Below, piece by piece: positions 22,101 through 63,091 of a stretch of 64,000 nt of DNA (position 1 is the stretch's first letter; every line of letters starts with the position of its first letter). The DNA lies in assembly GCF_964355755.1 (NCBI RefSeq), contig NC_092676.1:4136288-4200287 (forward strand), written 5' to 3'. The notes below the pieces were generated by a model. That model searched no databases. It saw nothing but the letters and a program-made list of their open reading frames with translations, and was not told where the DNA came from. A program made the position numbers and the translations under genes. The stretch comes from Antedon mediterranea. Its lineage: Eukaryota > Echinodermata > Crinoidea > Comatulida > Antedonidae.

Positions 22101-25100
22101 ACTATTAAAGTTATCGCTGAGATGATATCTACATGTAGAAGGAATGGATGTATTTACGTCAAAAGGGTTAATACTTAATGAATTTAGATGATCAAAATCA
22201 ACAAATTGGTTTACGTGAAATTGTTTTATTTCATGTAAAAACTCATCATCATTGAGTATATGATTAAACGGAAGTAGAGAAATATTACATGACGTACAGT
22301 ATTATTATTATTATTATTATTCACTTTTATTTCAAATATCAAAAAATTGACCAAAATTACAACTCGTGGCTAAGAGCCAAATTGCGTGTAAAATACATGT
22401 CATATCAAAAATATAAATATATATAAAAAAAATGAAAAAAAAAAACAACAAAGAAGGGGAGAGCAGTCGCAAGCGAGCAGGGGAGAAAATTAAGAATTTA
22501 GTAATTTGATGAAGTAGGGTATAGGGCTATTGGTAAATCTGGATGTTTTAGACGCTAGCTGGGTAATTTTGTTTTTATTTCTTAAATTCCTACCATGACA
22601 GCTATGTCTGGTCGGTGGGATTAAATCAGCTGTTTGTTTAATTTTGGGGAGATACTCAGCGAACTTGCGACAATGCTCCACCCTTCTTTGAGCCAAAGTC
22701 TCTAATTTAAGAAAATCAAGGGCACCAGAGTAAGAAAAGTAATCATTGCCTAACATAATACGGCAAGCCCTCTTTTGAACATTTTCAATACAATCGCTTA
22801 ATCTACTAGACAGGCCAGAATGCCAAACAACATCAGCATACTCAACAACTGGTCTAATGTAACCACAAAAGGTCAATTTAAGCTCTTCAATGTTAAAACC
22901 AAATCGTTTTAGAGATCGTAAAAAGAAAAGTTTCCTGGAAGCTTTAGTGATGATGGAATCAATATGACAGTCCCATTTAAGGTTGTCTTGAAAAAAAAAC
23001 TCCCAGGATCTTGGCTTTATTAACATATTGGAGCTTATCAGTTCCCAAGTGTATGTCAACGTGTGAAGGTTGGGTAGAACTGAAACACACCTTAAGGGCT
23101 TGACATTTTTTGGGGTTAAGCACTAAACAGTTGTTGTTACACCAGCGGAAAAAAGAATTAGGATCATCTTGTAAAAAAACAGGCAATGAGAGCTTACGAT
23201 TTTCACAAAATGTAAGATCATCTACATATTTCAGATACTTAGTTTTAGCATTTGTACCAGCATCGTTGATCATGATCTGGAAACATAAAGGGCCTAACTT
23301 GGTTCCCTGTGGGACACCAGCTTTTAAGTAAGAGTAATTAGATTAGGTACCATTATATTTAACACACTGCATACGCATAAAAAGAAAATCACACAACCAT
23401 GGTACCAAAGCCCCCCTGACACCAATATCAATGATCTTATTAACAATGATGGTATGGTCGATAAGATCAAAGGCCTTGGAGAAATCAGTAAGAACCATGG
23501 TACCAACATTGTGCTTATTCTCAGCACCTTGACAGAGATAATGCACCAAGTGGGTCAGGTAATGAGCAGTAGACAAACCCTTAACATTTCCAAACTGGTT
23601 AACATCGATTTTTGAACTTATATCTTGTAAGATCCAGTCAGTGATAAACTCCTCAGCTACTTTGGCAAACACAGAAGTAATGGAGATAGGTCTGAGTTTG
23701 TCAATAGTAGGAGGCTGAACCTTGGGCACAGGGACTACAACTGCCTTTTTCCACTGAGAAGGGACAATGCCTTCAGAAAAAGAACAGTTGAGTATATCAC
23801 AAAGTGGTTCACAAAACTCCATGGCAAATAATTTAACAGGCCTTGTTTTCTTTAATAGATCTTAATTTTTTATAAATATCCCAAGGATAAAGTTTAGGTG
23901 CAGGTTTGTCAGAGGGAAGGAATGCAGGGAGTTGGGTTTTATTTAGAAAAGGGATGTGAGCACTAATGTTAGTAAACAAGTCATTGATGACATTAGCAAT
24001 GGATTTATGATCCAATGGAGAGATTTAAGGAACTGGTATATTGAGATCAATTTTCTTAGTGTTTGTCATAACTCTGACCTGTTGGTGCCATTTACCTGGG
24101 TCAGTTTTTTGCAGGTGTCTAACTCTATCTACATTAAATTTTACTTTAGATTTAATGATTTCCCTCTTGACTTTGTTTCTGCAAGCTTTCCAATGGGTTA
24201 AGTTATTGGATTTAAACGCTTTTTGGCGTTCAGAAATAGAATTTCTGATATTTTGTGTTAGCCAAGGTTTATCAGTATTGTGCGTTTTAATATTTTTCAA
24301 CGGGAAAAACTTATTAATAGCAGTGATCAGTTTGTAATAGAAAGCATCAACTTTACTCTGTGTAGACATGCAGCTATAAATATCATTCCAATTCTGAGAT
24401 ACAATCCAGGTGCCAAACGATCTTATTCTGGTATCATATAAGGGACGAACACTTATAGATCAGTACCATTCTGGTTCTATGGAAAAACATTGGGCATGTG
24501 CGTACCCATTACATAATGCACATCTGTTTAGATTAATATCGCCACTCATGAGAGCGTTTCTGCATACAATACAAATCATATTAATAAGAAATTGTTTTTA
24601 GAAAATATAGTGTTCGTTTTGTCTCAAGGGACATAATATATTCATAAAAGTATATTGCCATGCACAACAAGTAATAATAAATACATATACATATATAATA
24701 AAAATAAACGACGAAAATAGAAAAAAAAGGTAATATGCCTTTAATATGTAAATTTAAAAATTCCAAACTTCTAATGGAGTAAATTTTTAAAAAGTGTTGC
24801 ATTTGTAATCTGCAAGGAAAAGTAAAAAAAAACAGTTATTTAATAAACAATGGTATCAGAGTCTACTCTCGTCTACGTTTAACCGAATGTGATAAAAGAA
24901 AATATCTTTTAAATTATTATGTGGAGAAAAAGCTACTAAATAAATAATGTTAGTTATAAAATAATAATAATAACGTTAGGTTTGACTGTCCTGCAACTTC
25001 CGTTTATGTACAAGTTGCCATTTCTGAAGGACGGCCTTTTCCCCTCTCTATAAGCTATGGCCATTGTGTCTTTCAGGCTTCGTTTTTTAATTAGGTCCGC

Positions 25101-34100: not shown

Positions 34101-37100
34101 CTTCCATTTTGTATGCGTATTATCACATACGATTGTTACGTAGCACTTTATAAGATTTGACTGGTTTTAATCGCCGGACATCACTTCCATTTTGTATGCG
34201 TATTATCACATACGATTGTTATGTCGCATTTTATAAGATTTGACTGGTTTTAATCGCCGGACATCACTTCCATTTTGTATGCGTATTATCACATACGATT
34301 GTTATGTCGCACTTTATAAGATTTGACTGGTTTTAATCGCCGGACATCACTTCCATTTTGTATGCGTATTATCACATACGATTGTTACGTCACACTTTAT
34401 AAGATTTGACTGGTTTTAATCGCCGGACATCACTTCCATTTTGTATGCGTATTATCACATACGATTGTTATGTCGCATTTTATAAGATTTGACTGGTTTT
34501 AATCGCCGGACATCACTTCCATTTTGTATGCGTATTATCACATACGATTGTTACGTCACACTTTATAAGATTAGGCTGGTTTTAATCGCCGGACATCGCT
34601 TCCATTTTGTATGCGTATTACCACATACAATTGTTACGTCACACTTTATAAGATTAGGCTGGTTTTAATCGCCAGACGTCACTTCCATTTTGTATGCGTA
34701 TTATCACATACGATTGTTACGTCACACTTTATAAGATTTGGCTGGTTTTGATCGCCGGACATCACTTCCATTTTGTATGCGTATTATCACATACGATTGT
34801 TACGTCACACTTTATAAGATTTGACTGGTTTTAATCGCCGGACATCGCTTCCATTTTGTATGCGTATTATCACATACGATTGTTACGTCGCACTTTATAA
34901 GATTTGACTGGTTTTAATCGCCGGACATCGCTTACATTTTCGTTGCTTATTATTACTAACCCTTGATACGTCACACTTTGTAATGTTAGGCTGGTTTTGA
35001 TCGCCGGACATCGCTTCCATTTTGTATGCGTATTATCACATACGATTGTCTTTATAAGATTTGGCTGGTTCTGATCGCCGGACATCACTTCCATTTCCGT
35101 TGCATAGTATCACATACGATTGTTACGTAGCACTTTATAAGATTAGGTAGGTTTTAATCGCCGGACATCGCTTCCATTTTCGTTGCATAGTATACATACG
35201 ATTGTTACGTCACACTTTATAAGATTTGGCAGGTTTTGATAGGCGGACATCGCCTCCATTTTCGTTACATAGTATCACATACGATTGTTACGTATAGCAC
35301 TTTATAAGATTAGGTAGGTTTTGATCGCCAGTCATCGCTTCCATTTCCGTTGCATAGTATCACATACGATTGTTACGTAGCACTTTATAAGATTTGACTG
35401 GTTTTAATCGCCGGACATCACTTCCATTTTGTATGCGTATTATCACATACGATTGTTACGTAGCACTTTATAAGATTTGACTGGTTTTAATCGCCGGACA
35501 TCACTTCCATTTTGTATGCGTATTATCACATACGATTGTTATGTCGCACTTTATAAGATTTGACTGGTTTTAATCGCCGGACATCACTTCCATTTTGTAT
35601 GCGTATTATCACATACGATTGTTATGTCGCACTTTATAAGATCTGACTGGTTTTAATCGCCGGACATCACTTCCATTTTGTATGCGTATTATCACATACG
35701 ATTGTTACGTCACATTTTATAAGATTCGGTAGGTTTTAATCGGCGAACATCACTTCCATTTTCGTTGCATAGTATCACATACGATTGTTACGTCACACTT
35801 TATAAGATTTGGCTGGTTTTGATCGTCGGACATCGCTTCCATTTTGTATGCGTATTATCACATACGATTGTTAGGTCACACTTTATAAGATTTGACTGGT
35901 TTTGATCGCCGGACATCGCTTCCATTCTGTATTCATATGATCACATACGATTGTTTTTTTTTTTTTTTTTTTTATTCAGTATATTACACAGAGGCGCCTT
36001 ACAAGATGGAACCATCTTAGCTTCAAGGCGCCTCAGATTAACAAATACAACATTTTAAAACAACTAACAGAAACATTAATTAAATCTTCCAGAATTAACA
36101 AGAAATTGTTGTACATAATAAAATAATAAAGCATTTTCACAATTCGAAAGAAGATCGGAACCAAAAATAAAAATTTCACTTAAAAATGTAAAATTAAATG
36201 TTAAAGAAAAATCCTTGGCTAAGATATCCTCAATAATTGAGTTAGCGCTTACAAGTAGAATATCTCTTTGTGTATTATACATACATATATTACATACGAT
36301 TGTTACGTCACACTTTATAAGATTTTACTGGCTTTGATCGCCGGACATCCCTTACATTCTGTATTCATATGATCACATACGATTGTTACGTCACACTTTA
36401 TAAGATTTTACTGGCTTTGATCGCCGGACATCCCTTACATTCTGTATGCATATGATCACATACGATTGTTACGTAACACTAAGATTCGGCAGGTTTTGAT
36501 CTCTGCACATCACTTTCATTTTCGTTGCATAGTATCACATACGATTACTGTTTTATCTAATTGTCGCATTTGATAATTTATAGATGATAAGCAGTAATTA
36601 CTATAATTAAGTAATAATAATTTAATTTTAGGCTTCAGTAAACATTTTCCGCAAACTATATATTTACTTATTTGTAGGGCAGAATATTATTACCCCTCAC
36701 TTTAAGAATACCGTGAAAAAGTACTACTACTACTGCACCACTACCACCCCCACCACCACTACTACTAACATTCAGTAGGATTAATAGCAGTATACATTTA
36801 AATAAAGAAATGTTTTAAACTATATTGTAATTGTTGTTATGCAGACATTAGACTTGTGGATGGCAGCAATATTTATGAGGGACGAGTTGAAGTTTACGAT
36901 GGCACAGAATGGGGTACAATATGTGATGATGACTGGGACATCAACGACGCTCAGGTTGTATGTCGACAATTAAGACTAGGACCAGCTATCCAAGCTCCAA
37001 TGCGAGCTCATTTTGGCCAAGGGACTGGTCCGATTATGCTTGATAATGTTCGGTGTTCAGGAAGTGAGACATTTATCACAGGCTGTCTTAATAGAGGAAT

Positions 37101-40100
37101 GAGGGTACACGATTGTGGACATTCTGAGGATGCTAGTGTTATTTGTGGAGGTAAAAAGGATTAACACAGAAAACAACAATACTCTAAGGCCAAGACACTT
37201 TTTTAACTAGGAAATGTCAATATGTTTATCTCAGTTTAAAAGGAAAATGTGTTTTTTTCATATTTTTGTTCATTGCCACCATTCAGACTTTGTGTCCTTT
37301 GTATCATTACTTTGTGAGTGGCCGAGCGGTTAAGACATTGGAACCGTAATTACGTAGCCATAACATCGGCAGGGGTTCGAGGCACACTCACTCCATGGTT
37401 GTGGTGGTAGAACGAGTCTTCTCGGATAAGGTCTATAAACCGTAGGTCCAGTGTACACATCTAGCTCGTGTGCACTTTAAATAACCTAGTACATCTTTCG
37501 AGACGAGTAGGGGGTTACCCCGGTGTATTAGTACATCACAGCCACTGATCACCAACTGGGCCCTCTGGGAGACCAGTCTTTGACTGAAGAGGTTACCCAG
37601 TATAAATATATATTTCAATCAATCAATCAATCAATCCACGTCTCAGTTATATTACTCATTAAATGTTAAAATAAAAACGTTAAGCAATTTCAAGTTGCTA
37701 CTCATCTTATAAAATAATGGGCAGTTTGTCAGAGTTGGAAAACAGAACCAATTTATTTTTTATTTAGTTGCAATCTCAAAATCATAATTTGTTTAAGAAA
37801 TGTATTATCCATTTAAACATATTCATTCATCATTTAATTTTATATCTGTTTATTTCAGTTCATTCAATTTTTACAAAACAGTAGACATAAATGTAAAAAG
37901 GTAACAGAAAATAATAAACTAATAATGAAGATAATGTTATTTTAGTGATGAAAGCTTAAAATGTTAAAAATATTTCTAAGGGCAGATATTATCTCATATT
38001 AAGATATACCTCATCATTTAAATATCCTTTTTATTGAACAGGTTTTAAATTTAGGAATAAACTGTTTAATAGCAGTAATTAATAATACTATATTAGGTAC
38101 CCTTACAATGGACGGGCGCCATCTTATGATTATTTTAAGGTTCGGGAATCAAAAACATAGTACAGTAATATAATGTAATGTCCTGAGTTACTAGTGTGTC
38201 AGATTTACGTCAGCTGTTCAAATAGACTTAACGAGAGTATAGCTTCACAGTGAGAGATATATCAATATAAAGAAATGATTTTAACTTGTACATTTGTTTC
38301 ATTTAGTAAACATTAGACTTGTGAATGGCAGCAATATTTATGAGGGACGAGTTGAAGTTTACGATGGCACAGAATGGGGTACAATATGTGATAATAGCTG
38401 GGACATCAACGACGCTCAAGTTGTATGTCGACAATTAAGACTAGGACCAGCTATCCAAGCTCCAAGACAAGCTTATTTTGGTCAAGGGATTGGTCCGATT
38501 ATGTTTGATAATGTTCAGTGTTCAGGAAATGAGACATCTATCACAGACTGTCCTAAAAGAGGAATGAGGGTACACTATTGTGGACATTCTGAGGATGCTA
38601 GTGTTGTTTGTGGTAAGTAAAATAGTAACTGTAGAAAAAGGATTAATAAATGCAGACAACAACAATACTGTAAGGCCAACACACTTTTTAAACTAGGAAA
38701 TGTTAATATGTTTATCTCAGTTTAAAAGGAAAATGTCTTTTTTTTTCATATTTTTGTTCATTGCCACCATTCACACTTTGTATCCATGTCCCAATTATAT
38801 TACTCATTAAATGTTAAAATAAAAACGTTAAGCAATTTCAAGTTGCTTCTCATCTTATAAAATACTAGGCAGTTTGTCACAGTTGGAAAACAGAACCAGT
38901 TAATTTTTTATTTAGTTGCAATCTCAAAATCATAATTTGGTTAAGAAATTTATTATCCATTTACACATTTTCATTCATCATTTCATTTTATATCTGTTTA
39001 TTTCAGTTCATTCAATTTTTACAAAACAGTAGACATAAATGTAAAAAGGTACCAGAAAATAATAAATAAACTAATAATGAAGATGGCATTATTTAGAGAT
39101 GAAAGCTTAAAATACAAAAAATAGTATTTTTCTATGGGCAGATATTATCTCATATTAAGATATACCTCATCGTTTAATCATCCTCTATTGAACAGGTTTT
39201 AAATTTAGTTTTAAACTGTTTAATAGCAGTAATTAATAATACTATATTAGGTACCCTTACAATGGACGGGCGCCATCTTATGATTATTTTAAGGTTCGGG
39301 AATCAAAAAGATATTACAGTAATATAATGTAATGTCCTGAGATACTTGTGTCAGATTTACATTAGCTATTCAAATAGACTTAACGAGAGTATAGCTTCAC
39401 AGTGAGAGATATATCAATATAAAGAACTGATTTTAACTTGTACATTTGTTTCATTTAGTAAACATTAGACTTGTGGATGGCAGCAATATCTTTGAGGGAC
39501 GAGTTGAAGTTTACGATGGCACAGAATGGGGTACAATATGTGATAATGGCTGGGACATCAACGACGCTCAAGTTGTATGTCGACAATTAAGACTAGGACC
39601 AGCTATCCAAGCTCCAAGACAAGCTTATTTTGGTCAAGGGACTGGTCCGATTATGCTTGATGATGTTCAGTGTTCAGGAACTGAGACATCCATCACAGAC
39701 TGTCCTAATAGAGGAATGAGGGTACACGATTGTGGACATTATGAGGATGCCAGTGTTATTTGTCAAGGTAGGAAAATTTGACACTAAATACAAACTTCAG
39801 TACTAACAGACGGTATTACAATACACTATTGACTAAGAGGGAGTGTTTTGTTTTATAAATTATATAAAAATAAGTTCTATTTTCAATAGTTTTACCCATT
39901 TAGAGAAAAAAGAGATTAAAGCTACATTTGGCGTCGTTTATTCTCCTTATATAATATTCCATTGTTTAACACGACGAAATGAACAATACCATTAAATTAA
40001 ACAGTGTAATAATGAAGCTTAAATATAATATGTTTTTATTTCACCTGTATCGAATTATAAGAATTTATGTTCATGTTTAAATTACTCATTGTTATCACAC

Positions 40101-43100
40101 CACCAGTCAGGGGTGGCGCCAGGATCTTCCCGACGCGGGGGCTACATTCCCCGACGAGGGGGCTATGCGAGCGAAGCGAGCATCACTAGGCTGGGGGACA
40201 GGGGGCCGCCAAGGGCCCCCGGTGGGGGTCCAGGGGGCGAAGCCTCCGGAAGCAACGCGTTCTAGCGTCATTTGAGGTCATTTTAATCAGATTTAGGGTA
40301 GCCATTTTTTTCCATTTTTTATAATGCATAAATAAAATACTAAAATACTGCGTGCAAAAAAACGATGCGCGATGACTGTTTCAATCTATATTTTTCAATT
40401 TAAAAAATAAAAGTTCAAAGAAAATTTAGAAAAATAGAGTTTTGGAGGTCCCGGAAATTGAACTTATTATACTTCAAAACATGAAACAAAATATATAAGT
40501 CCCTATAAAGGTTGTGACTGAGCTAAGAAATGTTGAAAAATAGAGATGTTAGGTCCCGGAAAATGCACTTCCTTGTACTTCGAAATATGACCAGCTTTAT
40601 TGTTGGGGCTGAGCTAAGAAACTGTTTAAAACTAGAGCTGCAGGTCTTCAAAAAATTGCATTTTATACTTCGGAAAAATCAGGCCTAGAGGCTTAAAAAA
40701 AGCAAGCGTAGACCTTTTTCAGTCGGGGAAATAAGTTTATTCCTCCCAAGTGTATGCGTGCGTACCATCTGGACTCCCGAGTGGTGAGAAATTCATGACA
40801 TACAGGACATTGAAAATGTAATAACTTAGCTATAATAAGATGTTGGCTAAGCGAAAATGGCATGTTTTTTTGTTTAGTAATGGATGAAAAATGTTTTTTA
40901 GGTGCCCCACGGTACAGAAGGTTACTTGTAAAAAATTGGTGAACATACGAACAATTAACATAATTCGTTTTTGCTGTAGTGTAGCGTACGTCGACGCAGT
41001 ACACGATGTAACCGTCAGTAAACTTCGCCTGGAAAATAACTACAGTACACATTTTGGTCCCTGGATGGAACATGATATCACGCGTCTCGACCCAACGTTG
41101 AACGATTCGTACAAAGGGATACCGCCAGACAAGTGCGAACCTAGCTATTGTTTAGTAGTAAGTTAGATCGCTGGCAATAATGAATGCATATAAAGTGCAT
41201 AATATCACTCTGACGTGCTCTCACGGTCAATGAAACGTCGCGGTTTTCTAGGCGCTGAAGCTAGCTACGAAGTGAACGCGAACGCTTTTTACTGTATATT
41301 ATATTCCCCGACAAAAAGTACCCGTGTTCCCTTCGGTAACCGTCGGTAAACTTCGCCTAGAAAATAACTACATTACACATTTTGGTCCCTGGATGGAACT
41401 TGATATCACGCGTCTCGACCCAACGTTGAACGATTCGTACTGAGGGATACCGCCAGACAAGTGCGTACCTAGCTAATGTTTAGTAGTAAGTTAGATCGCT
41501 GGCAATAAATGAATGCATAAAAGTGCATAATAGCCCTCTGACGTACTCTCACGGTCAATGGAACGTCGTGGTTTTCTAGGCGCTGAAGCTATATGAAGTG
41601 AACGCGAACGTTTTTTACTGTATATTATATTCCCCGACAAAAAGTACCCGTGTTCCCCGACGGGGGGGGGCTAGGCTCCCGACGAGGGGGTTAGAGCCCC
41701 CGTAGCCCCCCCGCTGGCGCCACCACTGCCACCAGTATTCATCATTATCGTAGTGTTCTACTATGTAAGATAGAAATAAAGTACTTGGTAATGCTGTTGT
41801 TTTACATGAATTACTGAATTGTATTATTTACTGCTTGTGTTTTTTTTTAACAAAATCATTGTAGTCAGATGCCCAACATATTGCACCTGTAATGTCCAGA
41901 CGTGTTACTTAGCAAGTTGTTATAATAACACTAGATGTACTCAATGGAATGCAAATATACATACAGAACTTGTTGACTACAATGTATATGATCCAATAAC
42001 AAGATTGTAAGTAGAACTAAGTTTATGTCATACTGTGAGCAAAATAAACAATTTATATTTCTTTGATAATATAGGTCCATGCTATTTATACAGCAGAATC
42101 ATGATAATATTGAACAGATGGGGAGTGGGTGGATTTTGTTAATGTGGAACTACTGGTCTTGTGGCGGTCTACAGTATATTTAGGTCGTTTCAATCAGTTT
42201 ACGGGCTCATCAGTAATCTGGTCATTTTCCGTATACGACATTTTACGTAAGAATGTGATAGTAGACTAAAAATAACATTTTTTATTTTAACATAGTATAT
42301 TGTGACATCACTAAAGTACATACAATAGAGTACATGCAGTATAACTACTGTATAATGTACAGGAAATGTAGAAATTTCAACATTTGAGGTGACAGAAAAA
42401 CTAAAATAATTTAAAAACAGCTTGGATATTGTGATTTACTTACACTGTGCATTCTTTGGGATTTGACCTATAACCAAATTAAGTACATGTTGGTTAAACA
42501 ATGATAATGGTTTAATATTATATTGATTTCACAATTTGTGATCTTATAAAAATAACTTTAAAAATCAAGTTTTTTGTTCATCCACCATGTAATGAACTTT
42601 ATTTTTTTTATATATAATAATTCAAAATCAATTTTTATTGTAAATATCACAATATAAATATAATTATATTTATATATATCATCATAACAAATGTTACTAA
42701 ATAATTAAAATTTGTTTATGTATTAATTTTGTCTTATGAGAAAAAATGTTTCAAAATATAAATATATATTTTATATTTTGACATTAAAATGTTTATGCAA
42801 TACAGTGAATGCATTGTAGGATCAATTGTAATATTGGACTAATATGCTATACATTATGACTATTTACAGTAAAAAGAATTTTAAAATAAACATTTTTTAA
42901 ATGTATCCACCATGATTGAACTATTTATTTTGGTAAGATCTAACAATTGAAACTAAATCTGTATTACATATAGATAATACATTTATTATATGGTTGCTAA
43001 CGAACAATTTGAAATTGGTGTAGAAATTTTGTTTTAATAAAATAAGTTATCAAAATAAATTTACCACATTTTTATTTTAACATAGTATATTTTGACATCA

Positions 43101-46100
43101 CTAAAGTACATACAATATAGTACATGCAATATAACTACTGTATAATGTAGCCTACAGGAATGTAGACATTTCAACATTTGAGGTGACAGAAAAACTAAAA
43201 TAATTTAAAAACAGCTTGGATATTGTGATTTACTTATACTGTGCATTCTTTTTACTTTTAAGGTCTTTGTACGATAACCAAATAAGTACATTGCAAGCCA
43301 ATGCATTTGCTGGTTTGACAGCATTGGAAACACTGTAAGTGTATTGCTTATGTTTGCTAACTTTTATCAGTTTGGTTTTAATCTAGAAATTAAATTACAA
43401 ATTATTTTGAATTGTTGATTAAGCAATTATAATGGATTAATATTATTACATAATTGCACAATTTGTGATCGTATAAAAAATATCTTTATAAATCACAAGT
43501 TTTTAGTTCATCCACCATGAATGAACTTTATTTTTGTGTAATACATAATAATTCTGAATTAATCTTAAATGTAAAATTTCACAATATAAATATCATTATA
43601 ATGATTGTTATACTAATTAATTAGTATTTGTTTATGTAGTGATTTTGTTTTATGATAATAAAAATTATTAAAATATAAATATATATTTTATATTTTGACA
43701 TCATTAAAATATTGATACAATACAGTGCATGTATTGTAGGATCAATTGTAATAATGGACTAATAATATTTACCTTATGATTTCATGATTATTCACAGTAA
43801 AACAAATTTAAAAAGCAACAATTTTGTAATTTATCCACCATGATTGAATTATTTATTTTTGTAATATATAACAATTGAAACTGAATTTACATTACATATT
43901 AGATAATACATTTATTATATGGTTGCTATCAAACAATTTGAATTTGTTGACATTTTGTTTTAAGAAAATATGTTATTCAAATAAATTTACCATATTTGTA
44001 TTTTAACATAGTATATTTTGACATCACTAAAGTACATACAATAGAGTACATGCAGTATAACTACTGTATAATGCACAGGAATGTAGACATTTCAACATTT
44101 GAGGTGACAAGAAAAACTAAAATAATTTAAAAACAGCTTCGATATTGTGATTTACTTATACTGTGCATTCTTTTTACTTTTAAGGGATTTGGGCAGTAAC
44201 CAAATAAGTACATTACAAGCCAATGCATTTGCTGGTTTGACAGCATTGGAAACACTGTAAGTGTATTGCTTATGTTTGCTTACAGTTACTAATTTGGTTT
44301 TATATTATAAATTAAATTATAAATTATTTTATATTGTTGGTTAAACAATGAAAATGGATTAATATTATTCTATAATTTCACAATTTGTGACCTTATAAAA
44401 AATATCTTTATAAATCACTAGTTTTTACTTCATCCACCATGAATGAACTTTATTTTTGTGTAATACATAATAATTTTAAAAATAATATTAATTGTAAAAT
44501 TTCACAATATAAATATCATTATAATGATTGTTATACTAAATAATTAGTATTTGTTTATGTAGTGATTTTGTTTTATGATAATACAAATTATTAAAATATA
44601 AATATATATTTTATATTTTGACATCATTAAAATGTTGATACAATACAATGCATGTATTGTAGGATCAATTGTAATAATGGACTAATAATATGTATCAACA
44701 TTTTTAAAATGTATCCACCATGATTGAACTATTTATTTTTGTAAGATATAACAAAACTGAATCTGTATTACATATTAGATAATACATTAATTATATGGTT
44801 GTTAACAAACAATTTGAATTTGTTGTAGACATTTTATTTTTAATAAAATAAGTTATTAAAATATATATACATTTTTACTTTAACATAGTATATTTTGACA
44901 TCACTAAAGTACATACAATATAGTACATGCAATATAACTACTGTATAATGTACAGGAATGTAGACATTTCAACATTTGAGGTGACAGAAAAACTAAAATA
45001 ATTTAAAAACAGCTTGGATATTGTGATTTACTTATAATGTGCATTCTTTTTACTTTTAAGGAATTTGTACAGTAACCAAATAAGTACATTACAAGCCAAT
45101 GCATTTGCTGGTTTGACAGCATTGAAAACACTGTAAGTGTATTGCTTATGTTTGCTTACTTTTACCAATTTGGTTTTAATTTAGAAATTAACAAACTTTA
45201 TTTTTTTGAATAATATTATAATAATTCAAAATACATTTTTATTGTAACTGTCACAATATAAATATTATTATAACAAATGTTACTAAATAATTAGTATTTG
45301 TTTATTTAGTGATTTTGTTTTATGAGAATAAAAATTATTGAAATATAAATATATATTTTATATTTTGACATTAAAATATTGATACAATACAGTGCATGTA
45401 TTGTAGGTTTGATTGTAATAAGGGAGTAATAATATGTACTTTATGATTTCATGATTATTTATAGTAAAAATAATTTTAAAGTGAACATTTTAAAAATGTA
45501 TTCACCATGATTGAACTATTTATTTTTGTAAGATATAACAATTGAACTGAATCTGTATTACATATAGATAATACATTTATTATGGTTGCTATCAAACAAT
45601 TTTTAATTTGTTGTAGACATTTTATTTTAATAAAATAAGTTATTAAAATATACATTTTTACTTTAACATAGTATATTTTGACATCACTAAAGTACATACA
45701 ATAGAGTACATGCAGTATAACTACTGTATAATGTACAGGAATGTAGACATTTCAACATTTGAGGTGACAGAAAAATTAAAATAATTTTAAAACAGCTTGG
45801 ATATTGTGATTTACTTATACTGTGCATTCTTTTTACTTTTAAGGGATTTGAGGGGTAACCAAATAAGTACATTACCAGCCAATGCATTTGCTGGTTTGAC
45901 AGCATTGAAAACACTGTAAGTGTATTGCTTATGTTTGCTAACTTTTAACAATTTGGTTTTAATTTCGAAATTAAATGAAAAATTATTTTACAAAGTTGGT
46001 TAAACAATGATAATGGATTAATATTATTATATAATTTCACAATTTGTGATCTTATAAAAAATAACTTAAAAAATCAGTAGTTTTTTGCTCATCCACCATG

Positions 46101-49100
46101 AACAAATTTTAATTTTTTAAATATTATATAATAATTCAAAATAAATTTTTATTGTAAATGTCACAATAAAAATATCATTATAACAAATAATACTAAAACT
46201 AAATAATTAGTATTTGTTTATGTAGTGATTTTGTTTTATGAGAATAACAATTATTAAAATAGGAATATATTTTATATTTTAACATTAAAATATTGATACA
46301 ATACAATGCATGCATTGTAGGATCAATTGTAATAATGGACTAATCATATGTACCTTATGATTTCATGATTATTTACAGTAAAAAGAATTTTAAAGTCAAC
46401 ATTATTTTTATTTGTAATTTATCCACCATGATTGAAGTATATATTTTTGTAAGATATAACAATTGAAAGTGAATCTGTATTTAATACATAATAGATAATA
46501 CATTTATTATATGGTTGCTATCAAACAATTACATTTGGTGAAGACATTTTATTTTAAGAAATTAAGTTATTAAATTATATTTACCACATTTTTATAAAAC
46601 TGACAAAATGTTTCTAAGTAGGCCTAATCAATATTTGTTTATGTACATTTTTGTTTATTTTAACAAAATAAGTTATTAAAATATACATTTGTATTTTAAC
46701 ATAGTATATTTTGACATAACTAAAGTACATACAATAGAGTACATGCAGTATAACTACCGGTACTGTATAATGTACAGGAATGTAGACATTTCAACATTTG
46801 AGGTGACAGAAAAACTAAAATAATTTAAAAACAGCTTGGATATTGTGATTTACTTATACTGTGCATTCTTTTTACTTTTAAGGAATTTGAGATGGAACCG
46901 AATAAGTACATTACAAGCCAATGCATTTGCTGGTTTGACAGCATTGGAAAAACTGTAAGTGTATTGCTTATGTTTGCTACTTTTACAATTTGGTTTTAAT
47001 CTAGAAATTAAATTACAAATTATTTTGAATTGTTGATTAAGCAATTATAATGGATTAATATTATTACATAATTTCACAATTTGTGATTGTATAAAAAAAT
47101 ATCTTTATAAATCACTAGTTTTTAGTTCATCCACCATGAATGAACTTTATTTTTGTGTACATAATAATTCTGAATTAATCTTAAATGTAAAATTTCACGA
47201 TGTAAATATCATTATAATGATTGTTATGCTAAATAATTATTATTTGTTTATGTAGTGATTTTGTTTTATGAGAATAAAAATTATTAAAATATAAATATAT
47301 ATTTTATATTTTGACATTAAAATGTTGATACAACACAATGCATCCATTGTAGGATCAATTGTAATAATGGAGTAATATGTACTTTATGATTTTCTATAAT
47401 TTCACAATTTGTGATCTTATAAAAAAACTTTAAAAATCAATAGTTTTTTGCTCGTCCAACATTAACAAACTTTATTTTTTTGAATAATATTATAATAATT
47501 CAAAATACATTTTTATTGTAACTGTCACAATATAAATATTATTATAACAAATGTTACTAAATAATTAGTATTTGTTTATTTAGTGATTTTGTTTTATGAT
47601 AATAAAAATTAATAAAATAAAAATATATATTTTGACATTAAATATTGATACAATACAGTGCATGTATTATAGGATCAATTGTAATAATGGACTAATAATA
47701 TGTACTTTATGATTTCATGATTATTTACAGTAAAACCAATTTTAAAATCAACATTTTTAAAATGTATCCACCATGATTGAACTATTTATTTTTGTAAGAT
47801 CTAACAATTGAAACTGAATCTGAATTACATATAGATAATACATTTATTATATGGTTGCTATCAAACAATTTGAATTTGTTGACATTTTGTTTTCAGAAAA
47901 TATGTTAATCAAATAAATTTACAACATTTTTATTTTAACATAGTATATTTTGACATAACTAAAGTACATACAATAGAGTACATGCAGTATAACTACTGTA
48001 TAATGTACAGGAATGTAGACATTTCAACATTTGAGGTGACAGAAAAACTAAAATAATTTTAAAACAGCTTGGATATATTGTGATTTACTTATATTTATTA
48101 CCAGCCAATGCATTTGCTGGTTTGACAGCATTGAAAACACTGTAAGTGTATTGCTTATGTTTGCTTACTTTTATCAATTTGGTTTTAATTTAGAAATTAA
48201 ATGAAAAATTATTTTACATTGTTGGTTAAACAATGATAATGGATTAATATTATTTATAAAATTTCACAATTTGTGATCTTGTAAAAACAAACTTAAAAAA
48301 TCAATAGTTTTTTGCTCATCCAACATGAATGAACTTTTTATAATATATAATATTTCAAAATGATTTTTTATTGTAAATGTCACAATATAAATATATTTTT
48401 GTAAATCAACAATTTCAGCCGTCGGGCTGCATGTTTTTTATTATATAAACCTGAATAAATAAATAAATAAATTATTACAATTGATCCTACAATACATGCA
48501 CTGTATTGTATAAACATTTTAATGTCAAAATATAAAATATGTAATCACTACATAACAAATACTAATTATTTAGTATAACAATCATTATAATGATATTTAT
48601 TGTGAAATTTTACAATTAATATTATTTTTAATTATTATGTATTACAGAAAAATAAATTTCATTCATGTTGGATGAATTAAAAACTAGTGATTTATAAATT
48701 TATTTTTTATAAGATCACAAATTGTAAAATTATGTAAATTATGTAATAATATTAATCCATTATCATTATACAGTTGTTGTACTGCATGTACTCTATTGTA
48801 TGTACTAGTGATGTCACAATATGATATGGGTAAATAAAAATGTATATTTTAATAACTTATTTTATCAAAATAAAATGTCTACAAAAAATTAAAATGTTTT
48901 GATAGCAACCATATAATAAATGTATTATCTATATGTAATACAGATTCGGTTTCAATTGCTATGTCATGGTGGATAAATTTAAAAATTGTTGATTTTAAAA
49001 TTAGTTTTACTGTAAATAATCATGAAATCATAAGGTACATATTATTAGTCCATTATTACAATTGATCCTACAATGCATTCACTGTATTGTATAAACATTT

Positions 49101-52100
49101 TAATGTCAAAATATAAAATATATATTTATATTTTAATAATTTTTATTCTCATAAAAAAAATCACTACATAAACAAAATACTAATTATTTAGTAACATTTG
49201 TTATAATGGTATATATATATATATGGAAACACAAATATTTAAAAAAATACCAAAATTTATACAAAATATAAAAAAATTTGAAAAATTCAGTTAAAAAAAT
49301 AAAATTATGTTAAAAAAATTACAAAATTTATATACAAATGCATAGGCCTATATATGTAAATATTTATAACATAGCCATCTTCAGCGTGATCAGTTTAGGT
49401 ACTGTTTAAATTAAGGATTCTACTTATAGTAAGGGCAGGCGAGGTCTTAAGACGGTTAGTTCTACAAACAGGTATATTAATTAGGGGTTTATGGACTAAT
49501 ATGTACTTTATGATTCCATGATAATTATTTACAGTAATTTTGTTTTAAGAAAATAAGAAATAAGTTATGAAAATATATTTACAAAAGTATATTTTGACAT
49601 ACTAAAGTATACAATAGATGGATTACATGCAGTATAGTGTATTTACTGTACTACAATTTAGTTTTAATTAAAAAGGTAAATTAGAAATTGTATTTTACAT
49701 TGTAGAACAATTATAACAAAATATTTAATATATAATTTCATTATTATGTGATTATAAGTTTAAACCCCACCTCACCAAAAAAAACCACAAACAACTGGTT
49801 TTTCGTATATGATAATATAGGCCTAATAAATCAAATATCAATTTTCAGTTGTTATTTTACAATATAAATATCATTTAAAATATCATTTAAGTTAATTTTA
49901 CTACATTTAGTATTTGTTTACTTTAACCAGAAAACAAACAAAAATAAAAGGGATAAATGCAGTGTTTATATTACCGTAAATCAATAGATAATTGGCAACT
50001 AACTTAATTAACTGCTAAAGCCCAAACTAGCAAGACCATAATGTGCATTATTTATCATATACTGTGTATTTTTTATCATTTAAGGTGGTTCATGAATGGT
50101 AACCAAATACACACATTGGAAGCCTATGCATTTGCCGGTTTGGAATCATTGACAGAACTGTGAGTATTTTTTCAATACTTGTACAAACTTCCTTATTTTT
50201 AAAAGAAACTTTATTTATTGTTGTTTTAGAACTATTCTAATTACTAGATGGTACGCTTGCTTCGCTCGCGTACCATCTAGGTCGTGCCCACAGATGGTTC
50301 TCGAATACATAATAATTTCAGCGTTAAAAAACTGGCGATTTCAAATGTACGTACCGCAGGACAATAATGTCGTTTACAGGAACGGATAAATAGACACTGT
50401 GATTTATGTACTAAACTAAAATTAGCACCCTGGGATTTACTTCCGAAAGAGAAACTTGTCACAAAATGAGACCAATTGTTTAAGTCAAATTTAAACAAAC
50501 TTAATTTGTGTTTTATATGTAACATTAGGGTTGAGGGATGGAAGAGGAACAATTTTTAAATATATTCTTTATCCATTTAGTAACGAAATATTAATTGTTT
50601 TCATGTTTTACAAATAATGTACCACTAAACCATGGAGGTATTTATACCCCCATGACTAAACACAAGTAAAACATTGCGATGTAATACTTTGTTGAAACTA
50701 TCACCGTCCTAGTCGATTGAAAAGTACAGTACGTATAACGATACATCACTACGACGTGTATATGTTTATATAATGTAAAACAATTTGTGAAAACCACCTC
50801 TATTCGGGGCAAATCATAAATTCGATTTAATCGTCAATAAATATTAAATTATCTAACTCAACTTAATTAGTAGGCCTAATGGTTTTCAATTGTTTCTTAG
50901 AGCTAATTCATACTTAAGTTGGTTCCTACCCTACCCACCAAAGTTGTTCTGCGTTTAGGGCATGTGATGCACTGTAGGCCTATCCTCTACTAAACATTCT
51001 AGAAATAACGCGCTATTTACCGAATTTTGCCCTTACGTAAATTTATATATAGATTCCAGTTGATACTGTATGTCATACTGCCCTAATATTGCTGTAACAC
51101 CGGTGCCAATCAATTTACATCTAACAACATGAATTATATTATTGTTTATATACATGAAAATTTTATTCAAAGATCTCTTTTGTCAATACATTTTTTATTA
51201 ATGAAAATTTACAATCATACAGTATCAAAACAACTTGGATGTATATGATTTTAATTACTATGAATCATTTTATTTTGAAGACGTTTGAATGGTCACAAAA
51301 TCAGTACATTGCCAGCTAATGCATTTAATGGTTTGACAGCATTGACAACACTGTAAGTGTTTTATTTAGTTCATAATACTTTTATAATTATTTTTTTTAA
51401 TTATACATTTTAAAATAAAATTTAATGAGAAAAAAGATAGATGCTGTTAATTTTACTCATTTGTTCTTTAGAATGGTTCCGAAACGTTGATCTTTTTTTG
51501 TCATTACATTTTATTTTAAAGTTATGTAGTAAACGTCTCTTAATTTGTAATTATGAATTCCTTTTTAAATTATAGTTAAATGTAAATCATGCAATTTTCT
51601 AAATGCAAATTTTAATGTAATGGTCCTATAGAGTAATTGTTTCACTTCATTTAATAATTAATATTTGATTAAAACTCCGAACAATGGGTCTTGATGTCCC
51701 CTTAAGGAGGTCCAGTAATATCATTTTCAGTATTTCTATCAAAATTATATTTACTGTCAAAAAGTATTTAGGTAACCGGTTACGGGATTATAAATACATG
51801 AAAAACCCCTTATTGTCAAAAATTGTCTGTGTGCCTATGGTACAGTAATATACGTTTATACAAATGTATTGATTTGCAATGAATGGAACATTCCAAATTA
51901 TTTGGTTTAACCATACTTGCATACCTCTATGGTTTAACACAAGTAGGTAAATTGATAGACCCTTGGAGAATAAACAGAAATAGTACTGTAATGCTATACA
52001 ATACTGCAAATAGGTATTAACCACTTTTGATCGCCATTTGAATCAAAAGTGTGTTGTACTGTTAGATATAATATAAACAAATATACTAATAAACTTTATC

Positions 52101-55100
52101 ACTTATTATAAACACATAATAATATAATACTTTATTACTGTCAGTTGTTTCTCAACGTTTGTATTAATTAATAATTACAAAAATATAAACGTATTAGTGG
52201 TCTTTAAATGTACTTTACTATTTCAATCGACCATGAGACAGTGACAGTTTATAAAGTATTAAATCGGAAATGTTTTACTCTAATTAGTGGTATATTATTT
52301 ATAGTATTAAGTAATGAAGGAAGAAAGTTTGTGGAAACAAACATATTGAATTTGAATTTAAATAATAGGTGTTTAAGACTATCTTCTGTTAGTTGAGGAA
52401 CATAGATTTAAGTATTTTTAAAAATTGTATTTATTTTGTTAATGCAAATTTTTAGAATTGTTAATTATACAAAAAAAATTGTTTTTTTTTCCTGTCCTCT
52501 TTTGGAAGTCTGTTTAATAAAAGGCCAAGTAATTAAATAGAAAAGACACACAAAGACTTTTGGGCGAGTGTCCGTTATGAGAGTTGTCCATTTACGAATG
52601 GTGTCCACACAGGGAGTTTTGGACCATTACTTAGGAAAGATAAAGCATCAAACTTTACAGTTTATTCTTTATTCTTTGTAGAAGGTTGGACGATAACCAA
52701 ATAAGGAAATTGCCAGCAAATGCATTTAATGGTTTGACAGCATTAAAAAAACTGTGAGTGTATCTCAAATTTATCCCAATTCATTAATTTACGTTTTAGA
52801 ATAATGACAGATTCATATTATTTAGTTTATCATTTCATAATGTGATCTTGTAACAAACAATTAATGAGAGGCAATGATCACCCAAGATCCATGAAATAAC
52901 ACCTTTGTACCAATAGGGTTACATGCTCTAGCATAATTTTAAAGGAAAAAAATTCACAAGAAAAGTTTAAGACTAATTAGCCGTGGATGGAAGAAGAAAT
53001 ATAATCAGAAAAATAAAGGGGTAAACACAGTGTTTATATACGGTAAGGTGTAGAAATCAATAGATAATTCACAACTAACTTAACTGCTCAAGCGTAAGCT
53101 AGCAAGACTATATACTATGCATTATTTATTATTTAAGGCGAATGAATGGTAACCAAATACACACATTGGAAGCCTATGCATTTTCTGGTTTGGAATCATT
53201 GACAGAACTGTGAGTATTTTTTCAATACTTCACTTTACCAACTTTCTAATTTCAAAAGAAATTGATTATTGTTTAGAACCATTATAATGTCAAATTATTC
53301 CAGTTAATACTGAATGTCATATAGACTGCCCTAACAAACATTGAGTAAACAGTGTCAGTCAATGGAATTACAATGAACAACATGAATTATATTGTGATCC
53401 TTTTGATTCCAAGATATTTTTTGTCACAAAAAAAGAAATAATGACATTTTACCATAATACTGTATCAAACAACTACTATATATATATATATATATGATGT
53501 ATATATTATATGATTTTCCTTAGTATGAATTATTTTATGTTGTAGTCAGTTAAGAAAATAATATCATAAAGTAGTTAAGTGTACTGTAGATTTGAATCCA
53601 ATTTGTTTGCTAAATATAAACGAAATATTTAACAAAGACACTAAGTTAGGGAAGGGCCGGACATATTGATAACCTTTGTAAAAATACAAAGAAAACAAAT
53701 AGGTGTTTTATATAAACTAAGATATTTGGTTTCTTTTAAAATAAATATTAATTTTAATATATAACTTCTTTATTTTACCGTTATTATTTATGGTATAGAA
53801 GTCTGGGGAAACACTCATATAATGTTACATTTTCTGATTTCATTTTATATAATTGTTTAAACAACTTAATATTATAGATGTTTAAAAGTTATGTTATATG
53901 TTTTGTGTTTTAATTATTATCATTTGTATTTATTATTTATATGCTATATTCATTTAATAACTATATCGGCGTCTATTAAAAAATTATTTATGTGTTACAT
54001 TTCGAAGGCCAAATCTCGCCAACCGAAAGCTTTTTATTTAGTCGTTTTGTCAAATAAGTAAATCATGTAATTATTATTATTTTACATTTTGTAAAAAAAG
54101 TCAAAAAGACTATGCATTATATTAAATAAAATAAACAGAAGGGCGTGAAAGATTACTGCAATTTTTGACTAAAAATCATGATCCTAATACATTAAAAGTT
54201 TTAATTTCTTTTGTGAGTTGTTGAAGCTTCCATAACATGAACAAGTGTTCGTTGCTATAGGTGTTTAGACAATCTCCTGTTAGTTGAGCAACATAGATTT
54301 AAGTAGTTTTAAAAACTGTATTCATTGTGATAATGCAAGTTTTTAGAAGTTAATAATACAACAAAAAATGTTTTTTTCCTGTCCTCTCTTGAAAGTCTGT
54401 TTCAATTATTAAATAATAAATTATTTTACATTGTTGGTTAAGCAATGACAATGGATTAATCACAATTTGTGGCTTATAAAAGATAATTTTTAAAAATCAC
54501 AGTTTTTAGTTCATCTATCATGAATGAACTTAATTTTTTTTTTAATTATTCCAAATCATTTATCCCCAAGTCAATTACAGTTTTCAACAACACCATTACT
54601 AGATACTTTGGTTCTGTTTAAGTAAATTGTTGTGTACTAGATGGTACGCTCGCTTCGCTCGCGTACCATCTAGGTCGTGCCCACAGATGGTTCTCGAATA
54701 CATAATAATTTCAGCATTAAAAAACTGGCGATTTCAAATGTACGTACCGCAGGACAAATACATGTCGTTTACAGGAACGAATAAATAGACAATTTGATTT
54801 ATGTACTCAACTAAAATTAGCACCCTGGGAATTACTTCCGAAAGAGAAACTTTTCACAAAATGAGACCAATTGTTTAAGTCAAATTTAAACAAACTTAAT
54901 TTGTGTTTTGTATGTAACATTAGGGTTGAGGGATGGGGAAGAGGATGGGTGCAAAGAGGAACAATTTTTAAATATATTCTTTATCTATTTAGTAACGAAA
55001 TATTAATTGTTTTCATGTTTTACAAATAATATACCACTAAACACAGTAAAACATTGCGATGTAATACTTTGTTGAAACTATCACCGTCCAAGTCGATTGA

Positions 55101-61552: not shown

Positions 61553-61878
61553 TTTTTTTATTATCCGTATTGTTCAAATTTATTTCTTAGTGTATAGATT
61601 ATACACATGATTTATAATGAAATCTAGATAAAAAGTTACTTTATGTCTTTATTATTATGTAACAACAAATGCGGTTTATGACATTATACGCAGAGGGATC
61701 TTTGATCGGATTGTGATACCGGCTATGGTGTTCGCGTTAGCAAGGTCCTATCATATATTATAAATAATTAAAGATTCTGAGAAAATCAATCAATCAATAT
61801 ATCTTTTAAAAATCAATTATCTTTATTTAAATCAATGCATATAACCTATAATTCGTCATAGTGACGAATTAAATCTAG

Positions 61879-63091
61879 TTATTTTTTTGTTTCTGTTTTT
61901 AACCCACCCATAATTCCCAACTGTGAACCTCCGGTTTGTAATGTCCCAATCCCTGAACTTTCTCAACTTAACTTTAACGTCTACAATGTTGAGAAGGTGA
62001 TTAATGGACTTTCGTCTAATAAATCTCCAGGTCCTGATTCCGTGCATCCATACATGAAATCTGCTTCCGAATTTATTGCTCCACCATTATTTAATTTGTT
62101 TAACTTGTCCCTGCGTATGGGAGAAATCCCCGCTAAGTGGAAAATGTCCCATATTACTCCTATATTTAAATCTGGTGATACAAATGCAATTTGTAATTAC
62201 AGACCAATATCCCTTACCCTATATGTTCGAAACTGCTTGAAAAAATACTGTTTTCAAGTATATCTGATCACGTTGCTTATAATTGTCCAATTACAGAAGC
62301 CCAGCACGGTTTTTTTCCCTCCCGTTCCTGTGTACCCAACTTACCAACCTAACACCAGAATTGATGTTATCTTTCTCGACTACGCCAAAGCGTTTAATAA
62401 ACTGCCCCACCATATTATTTTAAATAAGCTGGCTAGTCACTTCAATATCAGAGACAATGTCTGGAAATGGATCAAGTCATTTCTATTGGGACGTTCCCAA
62501 AGAGTCTTGTATCAAGGATCCATTAGCCCATCATCCCCAGTTACCTCTGGAATACCACAGGGCAGCGTACTTAGACCCCTTCTTTTTAACTTGTTTATAA
62601 ATGACCTTCCCTCATCTATTATTTCTCAATGTGCATTGTTTGCCGATGACCCGATAATTTATAGAAATATATTTACTGTAGACGATGAAGTTGTTCTTCA
62701 GTGCGATCTGATCAGGCTTTCCTCTTGGTGTGATCTAAATGAAATGGAGCTTAACTTAAATAAAACCAAGGTTCTCCACATTACAAGATCAAGGAAAGAG
62801 TATAGACATGTTTATCGTATAAATGACTTGCCTATTAAATCCGTATCTAGTCATTGTCATTGTCATCTGGGGGTCACGATTAATAGTGAACTTACTGGGG
62901 ATGACCATGTAAACTTAATTATTTCTCGTTCAAATCGAATGTTGGGTTTTATTACTAGTATTGCAGGAGGATCATCCCCTTCAGCTATTTTCTCACTCTA
63001 TAAAGCTCTCATTGTCCCCATCCTTGAATATGGTGTCCCTGCGTGGTTGGGTGTCACGAAACCTAAAACCACGAAAGCTAAGACCCCCTAA
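61879..63091 (+). pseudogene. LINE ORF2 reverse transcriptase, downstream of the nested insert
   Basis: Reads YFFVSVFNPP, then an open frame from 61997 to 63091 with SPGPDSVHP, YRPISLT, DVIFLDYAKAF, GIPQGSVLRPLLFN and the catalytic-type FADDPIIY, then LGVTI. These are the ordered motifs of a jockey/CR1-type LINE reverse transcriptase. A region near 62220-62340 is scrambled by frameshifts, because the EKI and QHGF motifs are missing. The 3' end is cut by short tandem repeats at 63060. It is not functional. Confidence 0.82.

Follow-up and report, generated by a model that had tools for sequence, protein, structure and literature searches.

How does a gene come to carry several nearly identical leucine-rich repeat (LRR) exons in a row, differing from one another mainly where an LRR protein would meet its ligand? 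The question is raised by a 64,000-nucleotide stretch of the genome of the crinoid Antedon mediterranea (assembly GCF_964355755.1, contig NC_092676.1, positions 4,136,288 to 4,200,287), referred to below as the window, which was analysed from DNA sequence only and in one assembly. The answer considered likely is that the window contains a gene belonging to a large family of type C, relaxin-receptor-related, LRR-containing G-protein-coupled receptors (GPCRs), or LGRs, in which a variable LRR array is combined with a conserved signalling exon, and which would have been diversified by duplication, short-tract gene conversion and selection.

The five array exons of the window (Table 1) are 72 nt long apiece, in phase 2, and flanked by AG and GT. 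The strand residues that a first-pass annotation had read from them were recovered exactly, and its remaining replacements in exons 1-5 (Q/P, E/K, T/K and NQI/NRI) were also found, together with one additional silent change, TTG/TTA at codon 14. The E/K and T/K swaps sit at x2 and x3 of the motif LxxLxLxxN, and so at strand positions as well. Residues x5, x7 and x8 of this motif face the concave surface of LRR proteins, and their codons are here called hypervariable (hv), a choice made post hoc from the variation that the annotation had sighted. Within the window's five exons, variable nucleotides made up 8 of the 9 in hv codons and 5 of the 63 elsewhere (Fisher p = 9e-7, the sites not being independent), which bears out the claim that the exons between 43263 and 46954 vary mainly on the binding face.

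Across the genome, the exon pattern with its three codons left free gave at least 143 exact matches, and at least 424 when up to three mismatches were allowed, while the reversed pattern, used as a control, gave none; these counts, like those for the seven-transmembrane (7TM) and cap exons given below, are lower bounds. Twelve joined segments contained 131 strong exon matches, 120 of which were clean, a term that the selection rule reserves for 72-nt units in phase 2. The other 11 comprised the truncated exon (two copies), an exon interrupted by a stop, one cut at a segment end, and seven (the 75-nt exon included) whose 72-nt boundaries lack standard splice sites. The main set consisted of the 77 clean exons, from 10 segments and including the window's five, that share the window framework, and 58 of these are distinct.

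Among the 58 distinct exons, the three hv codons formed the most diverse of all 1771 codon triples, and chance was rejected on this ranking and on the Fisher test. Entropy was 2.34, 2.36 and 2.88 bits at x5, x7 and x8, followed by x3 (1.10), x2 (1.03), the Q/P codon (1.00) and an A/V codon (0.74), with the other 16 codons at or below 0.43. The five strand codons x2, x3, x5, x7 and x8 were matched or exceeded by 3 of 33648 other five-codon sets, and were not top because the Q/P codon is more diverse than x2 or x3. Counted as non-synonymous (pN) and synonymous (pS) differences, hv codons had a pN of 0.519 and a pS of 0.071, while the pS of the whole exon was 0.020; bootstrapping the ratio of hv pN to exon pS gave 18.2-43.1 (60 resamplings, relatedness ignored). 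Tyr (50), Ser (44), Asp (21), Arg (18), Gly (15) and Asn (13) predominated among the 174 hv residues. The codons were of the form NNY in 149 of 174 cases, and the third base of these 149 did not vary within a site, being C at x7 and T at x5 and at x8. Diversifying selection had been suggested from the window's exons, and would have lost its footing had a larger set displayed no non-synonymous excess at strand codons; the excess is present in the 58 exons, and the fixed third bases also support it.

A neutral explanation would be that recent tandem duplication keeps the exons similar and that strand codons differ through relaxed constraint alone. Exposed strand positions are in general less constrained than the core Leu and Asn of an LRR, and intron diversity, about 0.02-0.04 near the exon (up to 50 nt upstream and 10 nt downstream), is high farther out, at 0.05-0.18 upstream and 0.13-0.36 downstream, ragged alignment ends aside, so it could be the framework that is unusual, and not the strand codons. 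However, the diversity of first and second hv bases (0.41-0.64) exceeds that of every flank window, except for the two ragged windows at the outer ends (0.41 and 0.54). Between cassettes, introns diverged by a mean of 0.139 within segments and 0.160 between them, the corresponding values for first and second hv bases being 0.508 and 0.545, and in the 15 closest non-identical pairs, with intron divergence below 2% (mean 1%), these bases already differed by 26%. Invariant third bases at each site are not expected from relaxed drift at an equal rate, and Cys (TGY), one step from the codons in use, is absent from the hv sites of the main set. Relaxed constraint alone was rejected on the comparison of hv and flank diversity, the close-pair differences and the invariant third bases, and neutral turnover is regarded as very improbable.

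The close pairs also bear on whether a local mutational process, such as targeted mutation or templated copying, generates the diversity while selection plays a secondary part. Between some of the closest cassettes there are 4-6 hv base differences but only 4-6 intron differences, and hv codons are almost unlinked to one another, x7-x8 excepted, both of which would suit such a process. Yet x5 and x7 are separated by a Leu codon that is near-fixed as TTG (56 of 58, the rest TTC) and the third bases are fixed, so that an amino-acid filter is required whatever the source of mutation. As the principal cause a local process is improbable, although it may act jointly with selection.

The arrangement of variants among cassettes favours exchange over short distances. 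Linkage between sites outside the hv codons fell from an r2 of 0.56 at 3 nt or less (3 pairs) to 0.046 at 31-60 nt (14 pairs), where chance would give 0.015 (67 distinct rows), and the upstream and downstream intron flanks of a cassette were nearly uncorrelated (rho 0.10); the shuffling of cassettes proposed in the first-pass annotation finds support in both. In a comparison of 21 site pairs, x7-x8 were linked (p = 0.001) and x5-x7 weakly so (p = 0.03), and the lowest p among the 18 pairs with a member outside the hv codons was 0.05. The weak linkage of hv codons may also come from recurrent mutation. With the near-identical gene copy described below left out, the nearest flank neighbour lay in the cassette's own array in 41 of 72 cases (upstream) and 33 of 72 (downstream), against 8.4 expected. 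The flank neighbours and the decay of linkage therefore indicate partial homogenisation of cassettes inside their arrays, together with recombination over short distances.

The gene as a whole, as read from the DNA, comprises a cap exon, the tandem one-repeat array exons, LRR exons of lower variability, and one exon that codes for a hinge and seven helices, all in compatible phases. Beyond the array there are nine non-array LRR exons, four inside the window and five past its end, and splicing the cap and 14 LRR exons (5 array and 9 non-array) in silico gave a single open frame. The acceptor of the 7TM exon lies past the window end, at extended coordinate 68238, and its phase is compatible with the LRR exons, so that an LRR ectodomain and a 7TM region are predicted in the same gene, as in an LGR. 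The hinge and helices are coded by a 353-aa frame that matched Pfam 7tm_1 (PF00001) at E=6.5e-31, placing it with the rhodopsin-type 7TM regions of class A LGRs. Its best PDB match was relaxin receptor 1 (RXFP1; E=2e-47, 165 bits), with FSHR (E=3.5e-31, 112 bits) and LGR4 (52-53 bits) ranking lower; by match scores rather than a tree, the predicted 7TM region is closest to RXFP among LGRs, as for type C. Protein matches to the joined LRR part were led by the acid-labile subunit, and included Toll-like receptors, LGR4/5 and VLRs (the variable lymphocyte receptors of lampreys and hagfish). The 7TM exon had at least 120 genome matches, about 65 of which (a hand count) ran over nearly the full length without a stop, at 43% identity or more. 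By coordinates, each of the ten best (92-100% identical) has an array of the same strand on its 5' side, and of the 12 cap-exon matches listed 11 sit 5' of one; these 11 array-linked copies were found at E<=6.4e-14, one of them carrying an in-frame TAG. Six 7TM exons compared in 15 pairs were conserved, with pN of 0.001-0.042 and pS of 0-0.19.

Table 1. Positions in the window of array exons, other LRR-related exons and upstream domain exons.
Feature	Position	Strand	Detail
SRCR domain exon (match range)	36841-37146	+	tblastn, 85% identity to SRCR at 39458
SRCR domain exon (match range)	38306-38611	+	Pfam PF00530, E=2.8e-32; 89% identity to 39458
SRCR domain exon (match range)	39458-39763	+	Pfam PF00530, E=5.7e-33
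Cys-rich LRRNT-like cap exon, 142 nt	41865-42006	+	phase 1 in, phase 2 out; AG/GT; frame continues into LRR exons
Possible array-exon remnant, first 29 nt only	42459-42487	+	weak nhmmer match, model positions 1-29, E=2
Variable LRR exon 1	43263-43334	+	x5/x7/x8 = S/Y/D
Variable LRR exon 2	44185-44256	+	x5/x7/x8 = D/G/S
Variable LRR exon 3	45061-45132	+	x5/x7/x8 = N/Y/S
Variable LRR exon 4	45844-45915	+	x5/x7/x8 = D/R/G
Variable LRR exon 5	46883-46954	+	x5/x7/x8 = N/R/W
Truncated sixth array exon, 5' part gone, probable pseudo-exon	48097-48141	+	nhmmer model positions 28-72, E=3e-14
Non-array LRR exon, 75 nt	50085-50159	+	
Non-array LRR exon	51281-51352	+	paralogues hold similar exons
Non-array LRR exon	52682-52753	+	
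Non-array LRR exon	53138-53209	+	
LRR-like match, doubtful exon	59015-59086	+	E=2e-9; without standard acceptor; omitted from joined frame

Five groups of non-array LRR exons from the same genes served as controls; they were assembled by eye, with several other types omitted. Whole-exon pS exceeded hv pN in WLRDF (hv pN 0, pS 0.30; 4 distinct exons) and KLKGNK (0.19 and 0.31; 5 distinct). The values were 0.16 and 0.09 in RLDNNQI (7 distinct), whose x2/x3 codons vary too (pN 0.37), 0.06 and 0.05 in RLNGHK (5 distinct), and 0.28 and 0.12 in the fifth group (8 distinct). All five hv pN values are well under the array value of 0.52. Arrays elsewhere, built on other frameworks, behaved similarly to the main set in part. 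The C3 set and the set at C7:5.23 Mb, with 11 distinct exons each, had hv pN of 0.52 and 0.54, hv pS of 0.32 in both, and framework pS of 0.020 and 0.027. At C8:24384710-24487344 there is a tandem cluster with eight RXFP-like 7TM matches, 71-72% identical to that of the window and one with a stop. The stretch examined there held a 12-exon LRR array of a different framework, in which x3, x5, x7 and x8 were the most diverse four of 8855 sets, with hv pN 0.455, hv pS 0.527, framework pS 0.117 and flanks of about 0.20. Strand-focused variation therefore recurs on different frameworks.

Several observations weigh against a selected receptor family of this kind. The hv excess is about 25-fold over exon pS yet only about 3.5-fold over introns overall (0.14-0.16), and homogenisation may account for part of the lowness of exon pS. 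Framework codons also show pN above pS (0.035 and 0.008), and selection was gauged by counting pN/pS on exons that are not independent. Two of the five control groups (RLDNNQI and the fifth) have hv pN above exon pS, and RLNGHK marginally so; the contrast between array and non-array LRR exons is a matter of degree, WLRDF excepted. Inside hv codons, pN/pS is 1.6 for C3, 1.7 for C7:5.23 Mb and 0.9 for C8, and a clear signal by this measure is confined to the main set. Some arrays may belong to broken receptor genes, a suspicion that arises because the 7TM matches nearest the C3 arrays and near C7:8.27 Mb are partial or stop-bearing; those adjoining variable LRR arrays at C3:10809635, C3:10842895 and C7:8266130-8271087 are partial, most with stops. 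Lastly, a near-copy of the window gene at C7:4057000-4066999, 119,118 bases upstream and 99.99% identical (one mismatch in the 10 kb compared), could be a recent duplicate or an uncollapsed haplotype or other assembly artefact; its five exons were counted among the 77 and merged within the 58.

If the window does hold a gene of a diversified LGR family, its array may be regarded as supplying specificity in the form of cassettes. These would be multiplied and kept alike by tandem duplication together with short-tract gene conversion, and selection would favour new residues on the strand, mostly Tyr, Ser, Asp, Arg, Gly and Asn; every gene would thus show its own binding face while the 7TM output stayed constant. 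With a length of 72 nt and both boundaries in phase 2, an array exon is symmetric, and the gain or loss of a repeat leaves the reading frame intact. The receptors would most likely serve to recognise external ligands that change, whether in immunity or in chemosensation, and the DNA does not choose between the two. The same symmetry bears on a related proposal, compatible with such a family, that array exons are alternatives picked by splicing or somatic selection, which would give many binding faces per gene: any subset of the 120 clean exons stays in frame, but including all of them together yields an ordinary long LRR solenoid, and exon choice is judged rather unlikely. A wider idea, also unlikely, is that a germline LRR repertoire for recognition feeds straight into G-protein signalling, and that exon choice or a somatic process samples the arrays, giving a single gene many binding faces; such a system would be anticipatory without lymphocyte-type receptors, and convergent with VLRs.

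LGR-type hormone receptors are usually viewed as fixed partners of fixed ligands, whereas the arrays would bring to a GPCR, in germline form, the division into variable and constant parts known from antigen receptors, and they provide a testable case of recognition repertoires arising without rearranged lymphocyte receptors. The array genes resemble RXFP1, RXFP2 and the invertebrate type C LGRs (the GRL101, gonadulin and dilp7 receptors) in 7TM family and in an LRR ectodomain with single-exon repeats, and differ in having no LDLa found nearby, SRCR exons upstream at some loci, and hypervariable cassette arrays, which the excerpts cited below do not describe. According to the excerpt of PMC8286064, LDLa and LRR repeats are mostly coded by single exons, and ambulacrarians have one ortholog per irp-type LGR per species; an expansion like that of the array genes is not mentioned in the excerpt. 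The excerpt of PMC3310001 describes RXFP1/2-like genes as having expanded in a lineage-specific manner among early deuterostomes, the sea urchin having 27 rxfp1/2-like sequences. The Ciona cluster of 32 LDLRR-GPCR/LGR-like members is likewise a lineage-specific expansion with relaxin-receptor-like 7TM regions, but 14 of the 32 have LDLa and no LRRs, two have LRRs, and the excerpt does not describe variable LRR arrays (PMC2396169).

The comparison with lamprey VLRs made in the first-pass annotation holds as an analogy and fails as a statement of family. LRR modules of lamprey and hagfish VLRs are diverse on the concave strand, and in these receptors, as in the arrays, the binding face is varied upon a fixed frame. 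VLR cassettes, however, are incomplete in the germline and somatically assembled (PMC13428168, excerpt), whereas the array exons are complete with splice sites and their predicted product is a GPCR. Membership of the VLR family was rejected, the exons being complete and spliced and a 7TM exon being present. Insect Dscam is similar in having several near-duplicate exons, each a possible recognition surface. Its recognition exons code for immunoglobulin domains, whereas the arrays are LRR. Dscam exons are spliced in a mutually exclusive manner (PMC13428168, excerpt); the phase of the array exons permits exclusion without showing it. No description of hypervariable LRR arrays in GPCRs was found in the literature, a search of openly licensed PMC papers that is not proof, and the excerpts of PMC2396169, PMC6267866, PMC3310001, PMC8286064 and PMC13428168 do not describe them.

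An N-terminal LDLa module, as in type C LGRs and relaxin receptors, was not found in the regions searched. A regular expression for the motif found none on the sense strand of 10 segments, the 5' ends of the genes being undefined and absence therefore unproven, and none of the 150 scored among 955 candidate matches lay near an array, which is not proof of absence. Divergent 7TM relatives with same-strand LDLa exons nearby occur at C3:6.97-7.17 Mb, C4:21.38 Mb, C1:20.22 Mb, C5:14.47 Mb and C11:22.07 Mb. Because LDLa was not found near arrays yet is present near these relatives, the genes are termed RXFP-related and not relaxin receptors.

At the 5' end, the name LRRNT-like for the cap exon rests on position and cysteines, because it had no Pfam LRRNT match at E<=0.01. 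The SRCR exons upstream are perhaps an N-terminal part of the array gene: the phase-1 boundaries of the one nearest the cap, judged by eye, fit the cap exon, and a paralogue SRCR at C7:4436816 precedes its own LRRNT-like exon by about 0.47 kb. In the flanks examined of the C5 paralogues, SRCR similarity was limited to a 17-aa match. Many more SRCR exons, 81-94% identical to those of the window, occur at C7:4268582-4303195, between two variable-array genes.

Two further matches to the array exon model flank the five exons. The possible remnant ahead of exon 1 has a similar, likewise weak, counterpart at C7:4438217 (nhmmer E=0.8), and the truncated exon behind exon 5 has no clean acceptor where one is expected. 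Elsewhere in the window, open reading frames (ORFs) at 22490-23822 (minus strand) and 61865-63091 (plus strand) resemble, by eye, the reverse transcriptases of non-LTR elements. Similar ORFs spaced at 83 bases between about 28800 and 36000, taken from the ORF list, suggest a long tandem repeat, and the 273-aa ORF of a repeated unit at 1469-2290 is probably a tandem repeat and not a gene.

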